A program made the position numbers and the translations under genes. DNA of 64,000 bases, taken from contig NZ_RDBE01000007.1 in the NCBI RefSeq assembly GCF_003674065.1, positions 564,085-628,084 on the forward strand. Direction: 5' to 3'. The notes under the pieces are model-generated. The model made no database searches and was not told the origin of the DNA. It was given only the letters and a program-made list of their open reading frames with translations. Within the stretch, counting starts at the first letter, position 1. Each line of letters starts with the position of its first letter. This DNA is from Nocardioides mangrovicus (GTDB taxonomy: Bacteria; Actinomycetota; Actinomycetes; Propionibacteriales; Nocardioidaceae). This document shows, one piece after another, positions 4,335 through 12,673 of this stretch.

Positions 4335-4363
4335 CCCCTGGCTCCTTCGCTCGCGGGGCCCGC

Positions 4364-5254
4364 TCAGTCGCCTACCGCGTGAATGCCGCGCCTGACCAGG
4401 GCCGGGTCCGGCGTGCCGACGACGTCGGCGTCCTTGCCGGGGTAGTCGAAGCGGGAGAGGAAGGCGCGCATCGCCTCGAGCCGGGCGCGCTTCTTGTCGT
4501 TGGACTTCACGGTGGTCCAGGGGGCCCAGTCGGTGTCGGTGCGGCGGAACATCTCCTCCTTGGCCGCCGTGTAGGCCTCCCACTTGCCCAGCGACTCCAG
4601 GTCCATGGGCGAGAGCTTCCACTGCCGCACGGGATCGACCTGCCGGATGATGAAGCGGGTGCGCTGCTCCGAGCGGGTCACCGAGAACCACAGCTTGGTC
4701 AGCGTGATGCCGCTGTCGACGAGCATGCGCTCGAAAAGCGGTGTCTGCTCCATGAAGCGCTCGTACTCCTCGTCGTCGGCAAAGCCCATCACGCGCTCGA
4801 CGCCGGCGCGGTTGTACCAGGACCGGTCGAAGAGCACGATCTCGCCGCCGGTCGGCAGGTGCTGCACGTAGCGCTGGTAGTACCACTGGTGCTGCTCGCG
4901 CTCGGTGGGCTTCACCAGCGCCACCGTGCGGGCGTAGCGGGGGTTGAGGTGCTCCATGAAGCGCTTGATGGTGCCGCCCTTGCCGGCCGCGTCGCGGCCC
5001 TCGAACAGCAGCACGTGCTTGCCGCCCACCTCCGAGGTCCAGTTCTGGAACTTGATCAGCTCCACCTGCAGCGCGTACTTCTCCTGGTCGTAGGCCGAGC
5101 GTTCCAGCCGCTCGTCGTAAGGGTAGTTCTCGCGCCAGGTGTCCACGGCCTGGCCGGTGGCGTCGATCAGCACCGGGTCGTCGTCATGGTCCTCACCGAC
5201 GCTGTAGCCGTCGGTCTGCAGCCGGTCGATGTACTCGCGGACGTCCTCGATCAC
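4364..5254 (-). CDS. ppk2: polyphosphate kinase 2 (PPK2 family)
   Basis: A 296-residue enzyme that transfers phosphate between polyphosphate and nucleotides, usually driving ADP or GDP phosphorylation from polyphosphate. The Walker A loop GRDAAGKGG is at 86-94, and Walker B with the following lid is at 138-158 (EIVLFDRSWYNRAGVERVMGF region). The QVELIKFQNW and RRTDTDWAPWTTVKSNDKKRAR blocks are family hallmarks. Length fits one-domain (class I) PPK2. The start is the GTG at 5254, where family similarity begins; an upstream frame extension is low-complexity and lies inside the divergent gene. The 54-bp gap to the flavin reductase holds a divergent promoter. Confidence 0.93.
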   Translation of the reverse strand: MIEDVREYIDRLQTDGYSVGEDHDDDPVLIDATGQAVDTWRENYPYDERLERSAYDQEKYALQVELIKFQNWTSEVGGKHVLLFEGRDAAGKGGTIKRFMEHLNPRYARTVALVKPTEREQHQWYYQRYVQHLPTGGEIVLFDRSWYNRAGVERVMGFADDEEYERFMEQTPLFERMLVDSGITLTKLWFSVTRSEQRTRFIIRQVDPVRQWKLSPMDLESLGKWEAYTAAKEEMFRRTDTDWAPWTTVKSNDKKRARLEAMRAFLSRFDYPGKDADVVGTPDPALVRRGIHAVGD

Positions 5255-5296
5255 ACCGGGCAGCCTGCCGCGTCCGGGTGAACACCAGGTGTCCGG

Positions 5297-5302
5297 GACA
5301 AT
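5297..5302 (+). promoter_or_regulatory. -10 box GACAAT of the flavin reductase gene
   Basis: GACAAT ends six bases before the GTG at 5309. With the usual 6-7 base spacing the transcript would begin at the start codon, so the mRNA is probably leaderless. No Shine-Dalgarno sequence is present. Confidence 0.4.
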
Positions 5303-5308
5303 GGCCCG

Positions 5309-5800
5309 GTGACGCCTCCACCTGGGCAGTTCCGCCACGTGCTCGGCCACTTCGCCTCCGGGGTCACCGTCGTCACGGGGCTCGACGAGGCGGGGGAGCC
5401 GCAGGGGCTGACCTGCCAGGCCTTCGCGAGCGTCTCCCTCGACCCGCCGCTGGTGCTGTTCTGCGCGGCCACGACGTCGCGCTCGTGGCCGCTGATCCGA
5501 GCCGGCGGCACGTTCTGCGTGAACCTGCTCGCCCACGACCAGGCCGAGGTGGCCGAGGTGATGGCCGTCCGGGGCGCGGACAAGTTCGCGGGACTCACCT
5601 GGCAGCCGGCACCGGCGACGGGCTCGCCGCTGCTGGCGGGCGTACTGGGGTACGTCGACTGCTCTCTGGAGGCCGTGCACGACGCCGGCGACCACGAGAT
5701 CGTGGTGGGCCGGGTGCAGGCGCTGGACGTGTCCGGGGAGCCGGCCGATCCGCTGGTGCGCTTCTCCGGACGCTACCTAGAAATTGTCCAGACACTGTGA
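5309..5800 (+). CDS. flavin reductase family protein (FMN-binding split-barrel)
   Basis: A 163-residue protein. The N-terminal FRHVLGHFASGVTVVTG, the QGLTCQAFASVSLDPPLVLFCAA stretch and the FCVNLLAHDQ block are the flavin-binding core of the flavin-reductase-like family that supplies FMNH2 or FADH2 to two-component monooxygenases. A cognate monooxygenase is not adjacent; the nearest luciferase-like protein is about 24 kb away, so the partner is unknown. The gene ends 13 bases before the tupA-like start, with no terminator, so the operon that follows may begin with this gene. Confidence 0.88.
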   Translation: MTPPPGQFRHVLGHFASGVTVVTGLDEAGEPQGLTCQAFASVSLDPPLVLFCAATTSRSWPLIRAGGTFCVNLLAHDQAEVAEVMAVRGADKFAGLTWQPAPATGSPLLAGVLGYVDCSLEAVHDAGDHEIVVGRVQALDVSGEPADPLVRFSGRYLEIVQTL

Positions 5801-5813
5801 TCGAATCCGGCGG

Positions 5814-7160
5814 GTGAACCTCCGCACCCGCCGCGCTGTCGCGGCCCTCTCCGCAAGCGCGGTGGCCCTGGGGACGGCCGCCGCCACCGTCCCGGCGGCC
5901 AACGCCGACTACAGCAAGTCGATCACCATCGTCGGCACCAGCGACGTCTACGACTCCGGCCTCATGCAGTACCTGCAGCCGATCTACGAGAAGGACACCG
6001 GCGCCACCTACAACTACGTCAGCAAGGGCACCGGCGACGCCATCGCCTACGCCGAGGCGGGCACCGCGAGCGTGCTGCTCGTGCACGCGGCGTCCCTGGA
6101 GAACCAGTTCGTGGCGCAGGGGTACTCCCTGGAGAAGTTCGGTCGCTCGGTGTTCTGGGGCGACTACGTGCTGGCCGGTCCCACCAGCGACCCGGCCGGC
6201 GTCGCGGCCGACTCCCACGACATCGTCGGCGCGCTGGAGAAGGTCGCCGCCGCCGGCAACGCGGGCACCGCGGACTTCGTCTCGCGCGGCAACACCGCCG
6301 GCACGCCGGTGCAGGAGCACCAGCTGTGGGCGCTGGCCAACGGCACCAAGTGCGACATCAGCGCCACCAACGGCGGCGGCCAGGTGCCCTCGACCGGCAG
6401 CGGCACGTGCAACGCCTCGGGCACCGGCGGCAGCCTGCCGGCCTGGTACCACAAGACCGGCCTGACGCAGGGTCCGAACATCACCAACGCCAGCGCGTGC
6501 AACTACGGCCGGGGCCAGGACTGCTACGTCTTCACCGACCGCGGCACCTTCCAGTACCTGCAGTCCACGGGGCAGGCGCAGAACATGAAGATCCTGGTGC
6601 GTGACAACGCCGCCGCCTCCCGCGGCAACCAGGCCGCCCTGGTCAACGCCTTCCACGCCTACGCCATCAACGGCAGCAAGGTGCCGGCCGGCAACGCGGT
6701 CAGCCGGGCCGGGGCCCTGAAGTTCCTCAACTGGCTGACCTCCTCGGCCGGCCAGAAGGCGGTCGAGGGCTACCTCTCGACCGACTCGCCGTTCATCCCG
6801 GCGGCCTCGCCCGAGGTCAGCGTCGGCCAGGTGCGCACCCAGGTGCACCGCGGCGCGAAGCTGCGGTTCGCCGGCCGGGTCACCAACGCGATCCCGGGCT
6901 ACCCGACGCTGGCCAAGGTCAACGTCAAGCTGATCCAGGTGACCGGGTACGGCAAGCACAAGAAGCAGAAGGTGGTGGCCAGGAAGCACACCACCCGCTA
7001 CGGCTTCTACGCCATCTCCTACAAGCCGAAGAAGACCGCGCGCTACTACGTCCGGGTCGGCCCGCACACGCGGGTGGAGAACCGTTCGCTGAGCCCGATC
7101 TTCGGCGACCTGCTGCAGGCCGGCACCAGCCAGGTGATGCCGGTCAAGGTGAAGCGCTGA
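5814..7160 (+). CDS. tupA: TupA-like tungstate/molybdate ABC substrate-binding protein with Ig-like C-terminus
   Basis: A 448-residue secreted protein starting at GTG. A cleavable-type signal peptide occupies about residues 1-31 (RTRR, a long Ala-rich core, then ANA before DYS). Residues 35-345 follow TupA: a substrate loop VGTSDVYDSG near 38-47 in place of the usual TTTS-x-x-DSG, then YVSKGTGDAI, ASVLLVHAAS, FVSRGN and a terminal YLSTDSPFIPAA. Tungstate binding is the family role, but the altered loop leaves molybdate or another oxyanion open. Residues ~346-448 form a beta-rich, Lys-rich Ig-like extension absent from standard TupA. It leads the seven-gene operon and probably supplies the TupB/TupC pair. 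Confidence 0.8.
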   Translation: MNLRTRRAVAALSASAVALGTAAATVPAANADYSKSITIVGTSDVYDSGLMQYLQPIYEKDTGATYNYVSKGTGDAIAYAEAGTASVLLVHAASLENQFVAQGYSLEKFGRSVFWGDYVLAGPTSDPAGVAADSHDIVGALEKVAAAGNAGTADFVSRGNTAGTPVQEHQLWALANGTKCDISATNGGGQVPSTGSGTCNASGTGGSLPAWYHKTGLTQGPNITNASACNYGRGQDCYVFTDRGTFQYLQSTGQAQNMKILVRDNAAASRGNQAALVNAFHAYAINGSKVPAGNAVSRAGALKFLNWLTSSAGQKAVEGYLSTDSPFIPAASPEVSVGQVRTQVHRGAKLRFAGRVTNAIPGYPTLAKVNVKLIQVTGYGKHKKQKVVARKHTTRYGFYAISYKPKKTARYYVRVGPHTRVENRSLSPIFGDLLQAGTSQVMPVKVKR

Positions 7161-8404
7161 GACGCAGGCGCATCCTCGCGGCCGCGGGAGCCATCCTCTG
7201 GGTGGCTCTCGCGGCCGTGGCCGGTCCGGCGCGTGCCGACGGCCCGTGCCCGGCCGCAGAGCCGTGCATCGTGGTCCGGGCGCACGGCATCACCGAGCAG
7301 ACCTTCGTGGTCGACCCCACGCTGCTCGGCCAGATCGGCGACGTGACCAACGCGCAGTACACGACGTACACCGGCCGGGGCGGGGTACGTGACGACCCGT
7401 ACGTGGCCAAGGGTGCCTCGGTGGAGGCGGTGCTGCGCCAGTTCCACCTCGACGCCTCGGCGACCCGCGTCACCGCCAGCGCGGGACCCTCGGCCCGGCA
7501 GACCCTGCTCGACCAGACCGAGCTCGGCGGCGGTGCCTACGCCGGCGGGCTGGCGCCGGTGTTCTTCAGCGACAGCCCGCAGTTCATCCGCTTCGCCCGG
7601 CCGATGCGCAACGGCACCGACGCCAACTACCGCGACGTGTGGTCCGGCGACAGCGACGCTCCGGTCTACCTCGACGTCTACACCTCCGGCCGCGTGCTGC
7701 ACCCCGTGGTGAAGGCGTCCGCCACCAGCACCGAGGCCGGCCGGCAGGTCGGGTTCTCGGTGGGCTTCGTCGGCTACCACCCGGCCGGGCTCAGCTACGC
7801 CTGGACCTTCGGCGACGGCACGTCCAGCGCGGCCGCCGCGCCCCGGCACGCGTGGAAGAGCGGCGGCTCCTCGTACTCGGTGAACCTCACCGTCCGCGGT
7901 GCCGACGACGCGGCCGGCAGCGCCGACCCGGTGGTGGTCCGCGTCGGCAAGGCGCCGAAGCCGAAGGCGACCCACCACCAGTCCGGCACGGGCTCCGGCG
8001 GTAGCCACCAGCCCGTGACCGGTCCGAGCTCGGGGGCGGGCACCGGCCCGGGCAGTGCCACAGGGTCGGGCACCGGGGCCACCGGCACGCCGACGCCCTC
8101 GGCCTCGCCAGTGCCCACACCGACACCCAGCCCGAGCCCGCGGCCGCACCGGCCGCGTGCGGTCGCGGGCGAGCGCGTCCAGGGGGTGCTGCTGGTGGCC
8201 GACGCCGCCCCGCAGTCCGCGGCCCAGGTCCCCCGTGCCGAGGTCTCGGCCCGTCGTGCCGCCGCGGCTCGGGCCGCCGGCGCCCAGGGCTGGGACCGGC
8301 GGCTGCTGTGGGTGCTGCTGGTGCCCGGGCTGCTGCTGGTCGGCGTGGTAGGACAGTCCCGCTGGATCGCCCGACGCCTGCCCGTTCCCGCCTGGAGGAA
8401 GTAA
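7157..8404 (+). CDS. secreted, membrane-anchored PKD-domain protein of the tup operon
   Basis: A 415-residue protein, function unknown. Order: signal peptide (RRRRILAAAGAILWVALAAVAGPARA), a ~150-residue N-terminal domain with faint likeness to the small domain of molybdopterin oxidoreductases (PYVAKGASVEAVLRQFHLDASATRVTAS), a PKD domain around 205-280 with the typical YAWTFGDGT, a Ser/Thr/Pro/Gly-rich linker, and a C-terminal membrane helix (LLWVLLVPGLLLVGVVG) with a short basic tail. It would sit on the outer face of the membrane. I chose CTG at 7157, overlapping the tupA TGA and preceded by AAGGTG, because the first GTG (7202) would cut the signal peptide in half. If CTG is not used, the start is 7202. 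Confidence 0.75.
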   Translation: MRRRRILAAAGAILWVALAAVAGPARADGPCPAAEPCIVVRAHGITEQTFVVDPTLLGQIGDVTNAQYTTYTGRGGVRDDPYVAKGASVEAVLRQFHLDASATRVTASAGPSARQTLLDQTELGGGAYAGGLAPVFFSDSPQFIRFARPMRNGTDANYRDVWSGDSDAPVYLDVYTSGRVLHPVVKASATSTEAGRQVGFSVGFVGYHPAGLSYAWTFGDGTSSAAAAPRHAWKSGGSSYSVNLTVRGADDAAGSADPVVVRVGKAPKPKATHHQSGTGSGGSHQPVTGPSSGAGTGPGSATGSGTGATGTPTPSASPVPTPTPSPSPRPHRPRAVAGERVQGVLLVADAAPQSAAQVPRAEVSARRAAAARAAGAQGWDRRLLWVLLVPGLLLVGVVGQSRWIARRLPVPAWRK

Positions 8405-8411
8405 TCCGCCC

Positions 8412-9038
8412 ATGAGCCACGAGTTCTACCGGGTGGTCTTCAAGATCGCGGCGGTGCTCGAGCTGCCGGTCGTCGTCCTCACGGTGCTGGGCCTGGCCGT
8501 CGTCCTGGTCGAGGCCGGCGCCTTCGGCCTCGAGCTGGCCCAGCACACGCGTCGGCGGTTCCCCGCCCTGGTGGCGGCGACCGCCGAGGCCCGGACGCTG
8601 CTGGACGAGGGTCGCCGCGAGGAGGCCGGACGCCGGCTGCAGCAGGTGGCGTGGGCGCCGCGGATGAGCCGGGTGCTGAGCCGGTTCGCCGAGGTGGCCG
8701 GCGAGCCCGCGTCCGAGCCGCTGGTGGCCAAGCAGCTCGCCGACTTCGACTTCGCCTGCCAGCGCCGGCTCGGCCGTACCCGGTTGCTGGTGCGCGCCGG
8801 GCCGGCCCTGGGGCTCATGGGCACCCTGATCCCGCTCTCCCCGGCGCTGGAGGGGCTGGCCCGGGGCAACGTGTCGTCGCTGACCGACAACCTCCAGCTC
8901 GCCTTCAGCGTCACCGTGCTCGGTCTGCTGGTCGGCGTGGTGGCGTTCGGGCTGAGCCTGTTCCGCGACCGGCTCTACGGCCAGGACTTCTCCGACCTGG
9001 AGTACGTCGCCGCGGTGCTCACCGGGGACCAGCGGTGA
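8412..9038 (+). CDS. MotA/TolQ/ExbB proton-channel family protein
   Basis: A 208-residue membrane protein with three expected helices: about 13-36, 125-150 (RAGPALGLMGTLIPLSPALEGLA) and 163-188 (LQLAFSVTVLGLLVGVVAFGLSLF). The GPALGLMGTLIPL block is the hallmark of ExbB/TolQ. These proteins form the stator channel that uses the proton-motive force together with an ExbD/TolR partner. The next gene, overlapping by 4 bp, supplies such a partner. A standalone ExbB system is unexpected in an organism without an outer membrane; see findings. A Shine-Dalgarno GGAGGAAG lies just upstream. Confidence 0.88.
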   Translation: MSHEFYRVVFKIAAVLELPVVVLTVLGLAVVLVEAGAFGLELAQHTRRRFPALVAATAEARTLLDEGRREEAGRRLQQVAWAPRMSRVLSRFAEVAGEPASEPLVAKQLADFDFACQRRLGRTRLLVRAGPALGLMGTLIPLSPALEGLARGNVSSLTDNLQLAFSVTVLGLLVGVVAFGLSLFRDRLYGQDFSDLEYVAAVLTGDQR

Positions 9039-9391
9039 TCCGGGTCAGCCCGCGGGCCCACCGCACCGAGGACCGCTCCGGCGACCCCCTCGACGGCCTG
9101 GTCAACATGTTCGACATCGGCATCGTGCTCTCGCTGGGCTTCCTGCTGGCGGCGCTCTCGGCACTGAAGCTGTCGGCGTCGGTGACCGATCACGGGCTGA
9201 GCCGCGACTCGATCCAGGTGCCGCAGGACGCCCAGGTCTCCCCGGTGCCCACCGACGGCACCAAGGTGATCGGCCGCGGCACCCGGGTCGGCGAGGTGTA
9301 CCGGCTGCGCGACGGCCGGCTGGTGTACGTCACCACGCCCAGCCCGTCATCCAGCCCGTCGTCCAGCCCGTCGGCCAGCCCGACCCCGTGA
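9035..9391 (+). CDS. DUF2149 protein, ExbD-like single-span partner
   Basis: A 118-residue protein with one membrane helix at about 28-49 and a Ser/Pro repeat tail (SPSSSPSSSPS). The motif DPLDGLVNMFDIGIVLSLGFLL is DUF2149 and lines up with the ExbD/TolR helix, in which a single Asp (here D27) at the start of the helix is the proton-carrying residue. It overlaps the ExbB-like gene by 4 bp (GTGA) and the permease gene by 4 bp, so all three are translationally coupled. The C-terminal periplasmic part is short, unlike full-length ExbD. ExbD-like function is inference. Confidence 0.8.
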   Translation: MIRVSPRAHRTEDRSGDPLDGLVNMFDIGIVLSLGFLLAALSALKLSASVTDHGLSRDSIQVPQDAQVSPVPTDGTKVIGRGTRVGEVYRLRDGRLVYVTTPSPSSSPSSSPSASPTP

Positions 9392-10104
9392 CCTTCTTCG
9401 GGCAGGGCCTGCAGCAGGCGTGGGACCTCCTGCTGCACAACAACGCGGCGCTGCTGCAGGTGCTCGTGGTCACGCTGAAGGTGGCCGGGCTGTCGACGGC
9501 GATCGCGGTGGTGGTCGGGGTGCCGGCCGGCGTGGTGCTGGGCCTGGGCCGGTTCCGCGGCGTCGGGGTGCTTCGCGTCCTGGCCAACGTCGGGCTCGGC
9601 CTGCCGCCCGTCGTGGTGGGCGTGACGCTCGCCCTGCTGATGTTCCCGGCCGCGCCGCTGGGACGCTTCCACCTGATCTTCACCCTCCGCGGCGTCTACG
9701 TCGCCCAGACGGTGCTGGCCGTGCCCATCATCATCGCGCTGACCAGCTCGGCGGTGCGCGACGTCCCGCGCTCGCTGCTCGACCAGGCGCGGGCCTACGG
9801 CGCCTCGCGACGGGCACTGGGCGCGCTGGCGACACGGGAGGCGCGCGTCGGCATCCTCGCCGCGGTGATCGCCGCGGTCGGTTCGGGGCTCTCCGAGGTC
9901 GGCGCGGTGGTGCTCGTCGGCGGCAACATCGAGGGGGTCGACCAGACGCTGGCCAGCGCAGCGCTCGAGCGCGTGAACGCCGGCGACTTCGCCGGCGGGC
10001 TGGCGATCGGGATCCTGCTGCTCGCGCTCATCCTCGTCATCACCGCGGCGCTGACCTGGCTGCAGTTCGGCAACCGGCAGGAGGCCCGGGTGAAGGCGTC
10101 GTGA
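9388..10104 (+). CDS. tupB: TupB-like ABC transporter permease
   Basis: A 238-residue permease with five to six hydrophobic segments. The cytoplasmic coupling loop (RSLLDQARAYGASRRALGALATREARVGILAAVIAAVGSG...EVGAVVLVGGNIEG) is the EAA-type loop of tungstate/molybdate permeases. It forms the membrane channel for the oxyanion delivered by the TupA-like protein. Both ends overlap neighbours by 4 bp (GTGA), which fits one translated unit with the ATPase that follows. Confidence 0.88.
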   Translation: MTFFGQGLQQAWDLLLHNNAALLQVLVVTLKVAGLSTAIAVVVGVPAGVVLGLGRFRGVGVLRVLANVGLGLPPVVVGVTLALLMFPAAPLGRFHLIFTLRGVYVAQTVLAVPIIIALTSSAVRDVPRSLLDQARAYGASRRALGALATREARVGILAAVIAAVGSGLSEVGAVVLVGGNIEGVDQTLASAALERVNAGDFAGGLAIGILLLALILVITAALTWLQFGNRQEARVKAS

Positions 10105-11024
10105 GCCTGGTCGAGGCCCGCGCCGTCGCGGTGCGCCGGGGCCGGCGCGAGGTGGTCTGCGACGTCGACCTGGCCGTCGAGCGGGGCGAGGTGGTGGCGC
10201 TGCTGGGCCCCAACGGCGCCGGCAAGTCGACGCTGCTGGAGGCGTTGGGCGGGATCGTGCCCGTCGCGCGTGGCGACGTCGAGCGCTCCGGGCGTACGGC
10301 CACGGTGCTGCAGACCCCCGGGCTGGCCCGCCGCTCGGTGCGCGCCAACGTCGAGCTGGCGCTGGCCTGGTGGGGCGTGCCCCGCGCGCAGCGACGGCGC
10401 CGGGCCATGCAGGCGCTGGAGCGGATGCGGGCCGAGCACCTGGCCCGGCGGCCCGCAGCCGCGCTCTCTGGCGGCGAGCGACGCCGGGTGCACGTGGCCC
10501 GCGGCATCGCGGTGGAGCCCGACGTGCTGCTCCTCGACGAGCCGTTCGCCGGGCTCGACGGCGAGACCCACCAGGCGCTGGTCGAGGACACCTCCTCGGC
10601 GCTGCGCGAGGCGGCCGGTGCGGTGGTCGTGGTCGTCCACGACCGGGCCGACGCCTGGGCGCTGGCCGACCGGGTGGTGGTGATGATGCGAGGCGTCGTC
10701 GCCGCGCAGGGCGCGCCGCGCGAGCTGCTGGCGGCGCCGCCGAGCGAGGAGGTGGCGCGGTTCCTCGGCTACGACGGCCGGCTCGAGCGCGACGGGGGAG
10801 TGCTGCTCACCCGGCCGGCGGGCGTCGTCGCCGACGGTCCCGAGCAGGGCACCGTCACCCGGGTGATCGGCCAGGAGGACGGCGTGCTGGCCGAGGTACG
10901 GCTGCCCGACGGCACCGTGCGGTGCCGGTTCCCGCGGCCGGTGGCGGTGGGCGACACCGTGGGCGTGGGTCTGGGCGAGGGCGTCATACGCTTCGGCCAT
11001 GGCGGAGTTCCTGAGGATCGGTGA
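10101..11024 (+). CDS. tupC: TupC-like ABC transporter ATPase with C-terminal TOBE-type domain
   Basis: A 307-residue ATPase. Walker A GPNGAGKST is at 36-44, the signature is LSGGERRR, Walker B is VLLLDEPFAG, and the switch histidine lies in VVVVHDRAD. The last ~55 residues (GTVTRVIGQEDGVLAEVRLPDGTV...VGDTVGVGLG) resemble a TOBE/Mop-like fold that binds the transported oxyanion and may feed back on transport. It starts at a GTG overlapping tupB by 4 bp, and its 3' end overlaps the HTH-TOBE gene by 26 bp. Confidence 0.9.
   Translation: MSLVEARAVAVRRGRREVVCDVDLAVERGEVVALLGPNGAGKSTLLEALGGIVPVARGDVERSGRTATVLQTPGLARRSVRANVELALAWWGVPRAQRRRRAMQALERMRAEHLARRPAAALSGGERRRVHVARGIAVEPDVLLLDEPFAGLDGETHQALVEDTSSALREAAGAVVVVVHDRADAWALADRVVVMMRGVVAAQGAPRELLAAPPSEEVARFLGYDGRLERDGGVLLTRPAGVVADGPEQGTVTRVIGQEDGVLAEVRLPDGTVRCRFPRPVAVGDTVGVGLGEGVIRFGHGGVPEDR
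10987..10992 (+). promoter_or_regulatory. possible internal -10 box TACGCT before the HTH-TOBE gene
   Basis: TACGCT lies inside the end of tupC and ends six bases before the ATG at 10999. This geometry repeats that of other leaderless-type promoters in the window. It could give the regulator its own transcript, independent of the long operon. Weak evidence because the region is coding. Confidence 0.25.
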
Positions 11025-11373
11025 GGTGGCGCAGGCCGTCGGGGTCAGCGTCGACACGCTGCGCCGGTGGGAGAGCCAGGGCCGCGTCACTTTCGAGCGC
11101 CAGGGCAACCAGCGGGTGCTGCCGGCCGCCGCGCTGCGTCCGCTGATGGCCTCGGTGGCTGCCACCCCGGGCACGTCCTCGGCCCGCAACCGCTTCCACG
11201 GCATCGTCACCGACATCGTCCGCGACACCGTGATGGCCAAGGTGGAGATGGCGTGCGGGGAGTTCCGCGTCGTGTCCTTGATGAGCCGTGAGGCCGCCGA
11301 CGACCTCGGCCTGGAGGTCGGCAGTGCCGCCACCGCCGTCGTCAAGGCCACCAACGTGATCGTCGAGAAGTAG
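10999..11373 (+). CDS. MerR-type HTH plus TOBE (Mop) molybdate/tungstate-binding regulator
   Basis: A 124-residue two-domain protein. Residues 4-47 are a MerR/excisionase-like winged HTH (LRIGEVAQAVGVSVDTLRRWESQGRV). Residues 62-124 are a TOBE domain (SARNRFHGIVTDIVRDTVMAKVEM...VGSAATAVVKATNVIV), which binds molybdate or tungstate. Such proteins are thought to sense the oxyanion and regulate its uptake genes. The overlap with tupC makes it the likely regulator of the tup operon and supports an oxyanion as substrate. A binding site was not identified. Confidence 0.88.
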   Translation: MAEFLRIGEVAQAVGVSVDTLRRWESQGRVTFERQGNQRVLPAAALRPLMASVAATPGTSSARNRFHGIVTDIVRDTVMAKVEMACGEFRVVSLMSREAADDLGLEVGSAATAVVKATNVIVEK

Positions 11374-11377
11374 CGCC

Positions 11378-11797
11378 GTGGCGACTCGCGTCTACACCGA
11401 CGGCGCCTGCCGCGGGAACCCCGGTCCGGGCGGCTGGGCCTGGGCCGTCGACGACGGTCCGCAGGCCGCCGGCGGCGACCCGGCCACCACCAACCAGCGC
11501 ATGGAGATCCGGGCCGCCTGGGAGGCCGTGCAGGCGCTTCCGGGCGACCTGGTGGTGGTCAGCGACTCCACCTACGTCGTCAACTGCTTCCGCAACAGGT
11601 GGTACGTCGGCTGGCACCGCCGCGGCTGGGTGAACTCGGCGAGGAAGCCCGTGGCCAACCGCGACCTGTGGGAGCCGTTCATCGAGCTCGTCCTCCAGCG
11701 CGGTGACGTCACCTTCGACTGGGTCAAGGGCCACTCGGGGGACAAGATGAACGACCTCGTCGACCGGTTGGCCGTCGCGGAGAGCCAGCGGTTCTGA
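11378..11797 (+). CDS. rnhA: ribonuclease H (RNase HI family)
   Basis: A 139-residue enzyme that cuts the RNA strand of RNA-DNA hybrids. The four acidic catalytic residues are present: D in YTDGACRGNPG (residue 8), E in NQRMEIRAA (~43), D in VVVSDSTYVV (~64), and the last D in DKMNDLVDRLA (~126). The basic-protrusion tryptophans (WYVGWHRRGW) are kept. The GTG start lies 4 bases after the HTH-TOBE stop, so it may be co-transcribed. It converges with the CoA lyase gene across 15 bp. Confidence 0.93.
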   Translation: MATRVYTDGACRGNPGPGGWAWAVDDGPQAAGGDPATTNQRMEIRAAWEAVQALPGDLVVVSDSTYVVNCFRNRWYVGWHRRGWVNSARKPVANRDLWEPFIELVLQRGDVTFDWVKGHSGDKMNDLVDRLAVAESQRF

Positions 11798-11812
11798 GGC
11801 GTCCCCGGTGAG

Positions 11813-12673
11813 TCAGCGGCCCCGTATTGCGGCCTGCATGTCGAGCACCCGCTGGGCGGTCTCGACGTGGAGGTTCTCGATCATGCGGCCGTTGTAGGTG
11901 ACGACTCCGGTGCCGGCGCCGTCCTCCCAGGCCTGCAGGATGCCCTCGGCCTCCTCGACCTCCGCGGCCGACGGCGCGAAGGCGGTGTTCGCGCCCTCGA
12001 CCTGGCCGGGGTGGATGAGGGTCTTGCCGTCGAAGCCCAGCTCGCGGCCCTGGCGGCACTCGGCGAGGAAGCCGTCGGTGTCGCGGACGTCGTTGTAGAC
12101 GCCGTCGAGGATCGCGATGCCGGCGGCGCGGGCGGCCAGCACCGACAGCTGCAGCGAGACGTGCACCGGGGCACGGCCCGGCACGTGCTGGGCGTAGAGC
12201 TCCTTGACCAGGTCGTTGGTGCCCATCACCAGGACGGCGAGCCGGGGCGAGGCCGCCGCGATCTCGCGGACGTCGAAGATCGCCCCGGGCGTCTCGATCA
12301 TCGCCCACAGCTGCGTGCGCTCGGGGGCGCCGGCCCACTCCAGTGCCGTGGCCAGGGCCCGCACCTGGTCGGCGGAGCCGACCTTGGGCACCAAGATCGC
12401 GTCGGGTCCGGCCTTAGCCGCCGCGACGAGGTCGGCCGCGTGCCACTCGGTGCCCACGCCGTTGACGCGGATGACCAGCTCGCGGCCGCCGTACTCGCCG
12501 CTGCCGACGGCGGCGGCCGCCGCCGCTCGGGCCTCGTCCTTCGCGCCCGGCGCGACGGCGTCCTCGAGGTCGAAGATGATCGCGTCGACGGGCAGCGTCT
12601 TCGCCTTCTCCAGCGCCTTGGGGTTGGAGCTGGGCATGTAGAGCACCGACCGGCGCGGTGAGTAGTCGCTCAT
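11813..12673 (-). CDS. CitE-like HpcH/HpaI aldolase / CoA-ester lyase
   Basis: A 286-residue TIM-barrel lyase of the citrate lyase beta / malyl-CoA lyase group. Key features are FDLEDAVAPGAKDEAR (metal and acid residues), VPKVGSADQV, WAMIETPGAI (metal-binding Glu), VMGTNDLVKE and GKTLIHPGQVEGAN. It probably cleaves a hydroxyacyl-CoA such as malyl-, methylmalyl- or citramalyl-CoA. It starts at ATG 12673, overlapping the stop of the paralogous lyase upstream by 4 bp (ATGA), so the two are made together. Exact substrate is not decided by sequence. Confidence 0.88.
   Translation of the reverse strand: MSDYSPRRSVLYMPSSNPKALEKAKTLPVDAIIFDLEDAVAPGAKDEARAAAAAAVGSGEYGGRELVIRVNGVGTEWHAADLVAAAKAGPDAILVPKVGSADQVRALATALEWAGAPERTQLWAMIETPGAIFDVREIAAASPRLAVLVMGTNDLVKELYAQHVPGRAPVHVSLQLSVLAARAAGIAILDGVYNDVRDTDGFLAECRQGRELGFDGKTLIHPGQVEGANTAFAPSAAEVEEAEGILQAWEDGAGTGVVTYNGRMIENLHVETAQRVLDMQAAIRGR

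Follow-up and report, generated by a model that had tools for sequence, protein, structure and literature searches.

In a 64,000-nucleotide stretch of Nocardioides mangrovicus DNA (contig NZ_RDBE01000007.1, positions 564,085 to 628,084; hereafter the window), we identify an operon in which the genes of a Tup-like ATP-binding cassette (ABC) importer are interleaved with genes for an ExbB/TolQ-like channel subunit, a single-span DUF2149 protein and a membrane-anchored surface protein with a PKD domain, followed by a gene for a MerR-type helix-turn-helix (HTH) and TOBE-domain regulator. Open reading frames and Pfam matches confirm seven co-directional genes on the + strand at positions 5814–11373, the composition and direction proposed in an initial annotation made from the letters of the window. 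The order tupA–PKD–exbB–DUF2149–tupB–tupC is kept in five other loci (L025, L027, L034, L061 and L062) from at least two families and is therefore not a product of chance, and the MerR-TOBE gene comes next in four of these five loci and was not found in L027. We give an even chance to the reading that the operon encodes a molybdenum/tungsten importer run with a coupled proton motor.

A scan of named genomes with the window's ExbB returned 11 loci, of which three have tup genes around exbB (Marmoricola endophyticus, L025; Frondihabitans, L027; Nocardioides, L034) and eight are from Aeromicrobium; L061 and L062 are further tup loci from a sample of the class. Among the 393 genomes of the class sample, a close TupA homologue (>300 bits) occurs in three and DUF2149 in four, with all three lying within those four and the window's genome among them. 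All six close TupA homologues found are accompanied by the PKD–ExbB–DUF2149 module, and linkage of the module to a Tup-like importer, as initially proposed, is a conserved feature. Our simple gene caller gave some false open reading frames in GC-rich loci, and key genes were verified by phmmer or Pfam; homology searches additionally show DUF2149 in L045, and tupC and the MerR-TOBE gene in L062, all missed by the caller. Within the window, GTGA overlaps join exbB to DUF2149, DUF2149 to tupB and tupB to tupC, the tupC and regulator genes overlap by 26 nucleotides, and the gap between the PKD and exbB genes is 7 nucleotides. The called GTG start of the PKD gene (7202) truncates the signal peptide, and an in-frame CTG at 7157 forms a CTGA overlap with the tupA stop codon and restores an RRRR–hydrophobic–PARA sequence. 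Because a proper signal peptide is restored there, we take CTG 7157, a rare start codon, as the likely start of this gene.

Conserved residues indicate that ExbB and DUF2149 form a probable proton-driven motor. The aspartate in the DUF2149 sequence MFDIGIV (residue 27), already recognized as standing at an ExbD-like place in the single predicted membrane helix, is invariant in 15/15 aligned proteins, including those of CobN-type and FmdE-type loci (the alignment left out L031, L033, the duplicate L049, L037, L040, L041, L043 and L044), and has an equivalent in three homologues from Bacteroidota and Thermodesulfobacteriota. In ExbB, the elements Gly-Leu-Met.Thr and Ala-Phe..Thr-Val.Gly of transmembrane helices 2 and 3 are invariant in 14/14 proteins, as are Thr138, Thr168, Gly134 and Gly171; we take Thr138 and Thr168 to be equivalent to E. 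coli Thr148 and Thr181. Searches of the Protein Data Bank (PDB) with ExbB and DUF2149 profiles gave no usable match. In a 23-protein ExbB tree, all 15 PKD-type ExbB proteins fall in one clade (100/99) and the tup-linked proteins are not resolved as a single group; deeper joins are unsure because of long branches. The operon lacks ExbD, and ExbD (PF02472) was found in none of the eight genomes tested, the window's genome included. This lack would suit a vestigial, non-functional Ton remnant, as would passages of a 2025 survey that judge the incomplete Ton systems of monoderms, Actinobacteria included, likely non-functional (PMC12204202). We nevertheless regard such a remnant as very improbable: the ExbB channel residues and Asp27 are invariant across deep divergence, gene order is kept in six loci, units without tup genes are conserved too, and the survey, whose passages say nothing of DUF2149, may concern other genes.

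The PKD protein is a plausible force-receiving partner for this motor, as first suggested, judging by its sequence and predicted structure. Its parts follow in the order signal peptide, N-terminal beta-rich domain, PKD domain, low-complexity linker, VxGxLL-type box and C-terminal membrane helix. In an AlphaFold2 model, the N-terminal and PKD beta domains mostly reach a predicted local distance difference test (pLDDT) score of 80–95 and are followed by a long low-confidence stretch (261–365), consistent with a disordered linker, and then by C-terminal helices. Foldseek analysis of the whole model recovers the PKD domain, which is the sole Pfam domain of the protein; for the domain N-terminal to it, Pfam yields no family even with E values of up to 10 allowed. 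The box lies 37–43 residues before the C-terminal membrane helix in 16/16 PKD proteins examined, eight of them from Aeromicrobium and the whole set representing an estimated seven or so independent lineages, and a box-type match occurs in 0.7–12.8% of shuffled linkers when its position is left free. Alignment reveals that the box Val and Gly are invariant or nearly so, and the other conserved linker columns are low-complexity Gly or Pro. By analogy, the box resembles the TonB D-box, which passages of a structural study describe as captured by ExbD through strand recruitment next to the TonB membrane anchor (PMC10907165), and its position would match that of the D-box, in a protein whose topology is reversed.

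Two further leads concerning ectodomains were set aside. A sulfite-oxidase-like (molybdenum cofactor) fold for the N-terminal domain, suggested by sequence pattern, was dropped after the Pfam result, a PDB profile search that returned nothing meaningful, a Foldseek search in which the best 50 of 1987 matches were mostly PKD, immunoglobulin and fibronectin-type domains, and a weak hhalign match (probability 21%) to a similar-looking domain of L043. A box common to PKD proteins and CobN/FmdE ectodomains (VEGFEM in Trichlorobacter, IEGRAYEV in L036) is a lead only, with different spacing and with two Bacteroidota CobN C-termini lacking it.

These elements suggest how a coupled importer might work. 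A TupABC-type ABC system would import molybdate or tungstate, and ExbB and DUF2149 would form a MotAB/ExbBD-type stator with Asp27 as the conducting residue. The motor would act on the PKD protein as on an inverted TonB with its membrane anchor at the C-terminus, the outer domain of DUF2149 capturing the juxtamembrane box and the disordered linker extending outward so that the PKD and N-terminal domains reach into the cell wall. Through its cycling, the arm may help the TupA-like protein to receive the oxyanion, or a complex containing it, by delivery or release, with MerR-TOBE sensing molybdenum or tungsten and regulating the operon.

Gene content points to the substrate class. ModA scores above cut-off in 24 of 27 genomes, and the three exceptions, G000 (no match), G553 and G586 (matches below cut-off), are all operon genomes, the window's genome being one of the three; ModB is above cut-off in 5/8 genomes tested, with the same three exceptions. 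Same-genus genomes that lack DUF2149 have ModA above cut-off in 12/12 cases, and the one such genome tested for TupA (G399) has none. MoeA is present in 10/10 genomes tested, and the molybdenum hydroxylase family MoCoBD_1 has four matches in the window's genome, five in G586 and six in G422. From the lack of ModA and ModB above cut-off, together with MoeA and the four hydroxylase matches, we conclude that the operon probably encodes a molybdenum/tungsten importer, most likely the main one of the window's genome among the importer types searched. The tungsten enzyme aldehyde oxidoreductase (AOR) was found in none of the four operon genomes tested and in 4/4 genomes with ordinary actinobacterial TupA, and molybdate is the more likely substrate than tungstate. 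The ordinary tupA genes, L064 and L065 among them, lie within a few kilobases of the AOR gene in three of these four genomes, and in G760 the AOR gene is on another contig.

The binding protein itself is a divergent TupA. It matches PDB entry 3lr1 (TupA) with E 4.5e-24 and scores 91.5 bits against the NCBIfam TupA model NF041772, under the cut-off of 400; the permease scores 121.7 bits against the TupB model NF041773, under the cut-off of 320, and the ordinary actinobacterial TupA of L065 likewise falls under the TupA cut-off (210.5 bits). Four of the five ligand elements of D. alaskensis TupA are present, the equivalents of Arg118, His59, Thr124 and Asp170 being kept in the aligned TupA-like rows (residues as named in passages of PMC5517513). 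The protein also carries a C-terminal extension and a Cys-bearing insertion, the latter in 6/6 loci.

Several observations weigh against an importer with a coupled motor. The fifth ligand element, the TTTS motif, is intact in 4/4 ordinary actinobacterial TupA proteins and changed to GT[ST]D in 6/6 operon loci (GTSD in the window), and ligand or selectivity may therefore differ; with the lack of AOR, this change makes the initial label "tungstate-type" doubtful. The fourth operon genome, G422, keeps ModA above cut-off, and G553 has no MoCoBD_1 match. The DUF2149 model is poor outside the helix (pLDDT about 44–62 in the outer part), and hhalign comparison of DUF2149 with one ExbD detects no homology (probability 1.2%), although 13 aligned columns set Asp on Asp. 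The module also occurs without TupA. In the eight named Aeromicrobium loci no window Tup protein matched in the locus DNA, and all eight have a PKD homologue. TupA is absent genome-wide (E 0.001) from 9/9 Aeromicrobium-like genomes that carry DUF2149 (their genus deduced from the named loci, with which these numbered genomes may overlap in strain), whose nine short loci have ExbB adjoining DUF2149 in all nine and a PKD match in seven, and it is likewise absent from 2/2 module genomes of another family. The module is therefore not specific to tup operons, contrary to what the initial annotation had implied, and its presence without TupA in both groups argues that it did not primarily serve for the uptake of oxyanions.

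Such three-gene units in Aeromicrobium and two distant genomes would fit an independent, proton-driven wall or adhesion/sensing machine that sits in the tup operon only for co-regulation by molybdenum or tungsten, as would the common architecture and box of PKD proteins from tup and non-tup loci. We consider this explanation unlikely: the genes are inserted between tupA and tupB, with 4-nucleotide overlaps in the window and in an order kept in at least two families, every close TupA homologue found carries the module, and a second kind of ABC importer is linked to ExbB–DUF2149. This second importer, in locus L044 of G364, is encoded by co-directional genes (7159–12430) for a FecCD permease, an ATPase, a Peripla_BP_2 protein, a 336-residue protein, ExbB and DUF2149.

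We also examined the settings of DUF2149 across the phylum. Among 396 sampled genomes, DUF2149 scores over cut-off in ten. The gene stands beside tup genes in one, the window's own, so that, as the initial annotation had envisaged as a ground for abandoning its reading, the module is mostly found away from tup genes. Two genomes have the PKD gene without tup genes, three have CobN and DUF2162 (Pfam-confirmed), one has an FmdE-type protein, G364 has two loci, and in two (G266 and G303) the loci are cut by contig ends. Sub-cut-off matches in G315, G391 and G179 were rejected as chance: the window's ExbB found no counterpart in the short or extended loci, and the neighbours look housekeeping-like by eye. 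Several neighbours are large anchored proteins. In L036 (7921–11109), ExbB–DUF2149 is followed by a 1062-residue protein that contains two FmdE stretches (PF02663) and has a hydrophobic N-terminus and a C-terminal helix. The CobN-type protein of the Actinomycetota locus L039 resembles the PKD protein in layout, its N-terminus being hydrophobic and its C-terminus bearing a single helix. In L043, the other G364 locus, an anchored surface protein (4351–6411) with a Big_2 domain and a PASTA match under cut-off directly precedes the ExbB-family gene; the hhalign probability between a similar-looking domain of L043 and the N-terminal domain of the PKD protein is 21% over 59 columns.

The same pair is known from Bacteroidota, where passages of two papers identify ExbB as HmuU and DUF2149 as HmuV of the hmu operon (PMC12583661, PMC13227078). 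The gene order of this operon is HmuY–receptor–CobN/HmuS–HmuT–ExbB–DUF2149 (L074 has the receptor first). HmuS is described as a heme de-chelatase that takes iron from heme, with a membrane helix predicted at either end, and the outer-membrane receptor HmuR is assumed to be energized by HmuU/HmuV (passages of PMC12583661). On a Trichlorobacter lovleyi plasmid (L073, 8285–15561), DUF2162–ExbB–DUF2149–CobN lies beside a complete, separate exbB–exbD–tonB set; the two side-by-side motors suggest that the DUF2149 motor has a target other than TonB. The CobN of this organism has no CobS/CobT partners, according to passages of its 2012 genome paper (PMC3403914). From these settings we infer that ExbB–DUF2149 drives the anchored ectodomain. 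As a tentative proposal, the pair may define envelope motors of a class of their own, driven by protons and acting on anchored ectodomains as inverted TonBs (CobN/HmuS, FmdE-type and PKD-type) and not on outer-membrane receptors, and here directly energizing substrate capture or release for a monoderm's ABC importer. On this proposal, a single importer would draw on proton-motive force as well as ATP.

The CobN/HmuS and FmdE settings also bear on the substrate. It could be a complexed or protonated species, such as a metal–ligand complex, with the motor arm removing or passing on its metal, as extracytoplasmic CobN/HmuS de-chelatases beside the same pair might do; the altered TTTS motif and Cys-bearing insertion, the adjoining ectodomains with hydrophobic N-terminus and C-terminal helix, and the removal of iron from heme by HmuS (passages of PMC12583661) are in keeping with this idea. 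Retention of the other four ligand-site elements speaks against it, and a plain oxyanion is favoured by the TOBE regulator and by the missing ModA/ModB, making a complexed substrate quite unlikely in our assessment.

Our literature searches found no experiment on such an operon, and none of the titles and abstract openings that they listed describes a Tup and ExbB combination; DUF2149 is not mentioned in the text of a 2026 Ton/Tol review (PMC12905483). The initial statement that no such system had been described was too strong for the motor pair, known as HmuU/HmuV. The combination could reveal the role of Ton-like motors in bacteria that have no outer membrane, and its distribution suggests a motor for inner-membrane-anchored ectodomain machines, in contrast to views of a non-functional remnant or of a pair that energizes HmuR. 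The side-by-side ExbB motors of Trichlorobacter bear on what HmuU/HmuV do. Extracytoplasmic CobN/HmuS proteins apparently lack the AAA+ partners of other CobN chelatases, and an ectodomain motor would give them an energy source. For experiments the operon is a simple case, combining a genome without ModA/ModB above cut-off, one candidate importer, one candidate motor and a molybdenum enzyme as readout.

Table 1. Features of the operon region, in positions of the window
Feature	Position	Strand	Details
TupA-like oxyanion-binding protein	5814..7160	+	448 aa, GTG start; PF12849 62.8 bits
PKD ectodomain protein	7157..8404	+	probable CTG start; PKD_4 43.3 bits (frame scanned from 7202)
VQGVLL juxtamembrane box, candidate motor-docking motif (inside PKD gene)	8177..8194	+	
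ExbB/TolQ-like channel subunit	8412..9038	+	MotA_ExbB PF01618 29.8 bits, cut-off 22.9
DUF2149 single-span protein, probable MotB/ExbD-like stator subunit	9035..9391	+	PF09919 43.7 bits, cut-off 27.1
TupB-like ABC permease	9388..10104	+	BPD_transp_1 PF00528 49.3 bits; NF038017 over cut-off
TupC-like ABC ATPase	10101..11024	+	ABC_tran PF00005 92 bits
MerR-type HTH + TOBE regulator	10999..11373	+	TOBE PF03459 51.1 bits; MerR PF00376 37.6 bits
Candidate operator ACCTAG (weak lead)	5775..5780	no strand	39 nt before tupA

The regulator additionally matches the NCBIfam Mop model at 51.9 bits, under its cut-off of 55. The hexamer ACCTAG, a weak lead as a candidate MerR-TOBE operator, occurs 25–55 nucleotides before tupA in 4/6 tup loci and not in the 100 nucleotides upstream in L027 and L062; it is rare in GC-rich tup loci (0.06–0.27 per kb in the four with a copy near tupA), and a palindrome search upstream of tupA found none common to the tup loci. 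The C-terminal part of TupC (10780–11020) has a degenerate TOBE-type look by eye, with no Pfam match at E 0.1. Upstream of tupA by 13 nucleotides and in the same direction lies a flavin reductase gene (5309–5800), HsaB-like but under the equivalog cut-off and unmatched in the remaining five tup loci. Directly after the operon, an RNase H gene starts at 11378.

Like TupABC, the operon has a binding protein, permease and ATPase and retains most TupA ligand-site residues; it differs in its sub-cut-off TupA and TupB scores, its changed TTTS motif, its AOR-less genome and the insertion of motor and PKD genes after tupA and before tupB. With ModABC under a TOBE regulator it shares a TOBE-domain regulator and the probable substrate class, whereas three of the four operon genomes tested have no ModA/ModB above cut-off. 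The operon regulator has a MerR-type HTH instead of ModE. The likeness to Ton motors lies in an ExbB-family channel, a single-span partner with a membrane Asp, and a partner protein with linker and juxtamembrane box. Unlike those systems, the operon lacks ExbD, its PKD protein has reversed topology with a C-terminal anchor and PKD as its only Pfam domain, and its host is a monoderm, as inferred from named relatives; no TonB or TonB-dependent receptor matched among the operon proteins, no genome-wide search having been made. The hmu operon likewise sets an ExbB–DUF2149 tandem next to a large extracytoplasmic protein whose C-terminus bears a membrane helix, and serves metal acquisition, whereas the window operon has a PKD-type ectodomain and an ABC transporter in place of a CobN protein (PF02514, no match among nine operon-region proteins scanned), a DUF2162/HmuT-like gene and a receptor. 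The FecCD-type locus of G364, a system for which we know of no published name, shows the same arrangement of ABC importer genes and then ExbB and DUF2149 in one direction, with FecCD and Peripla_BP_2 proteins instead of Tup-like ones and a protein without a Pfam match where the operon has PKD.

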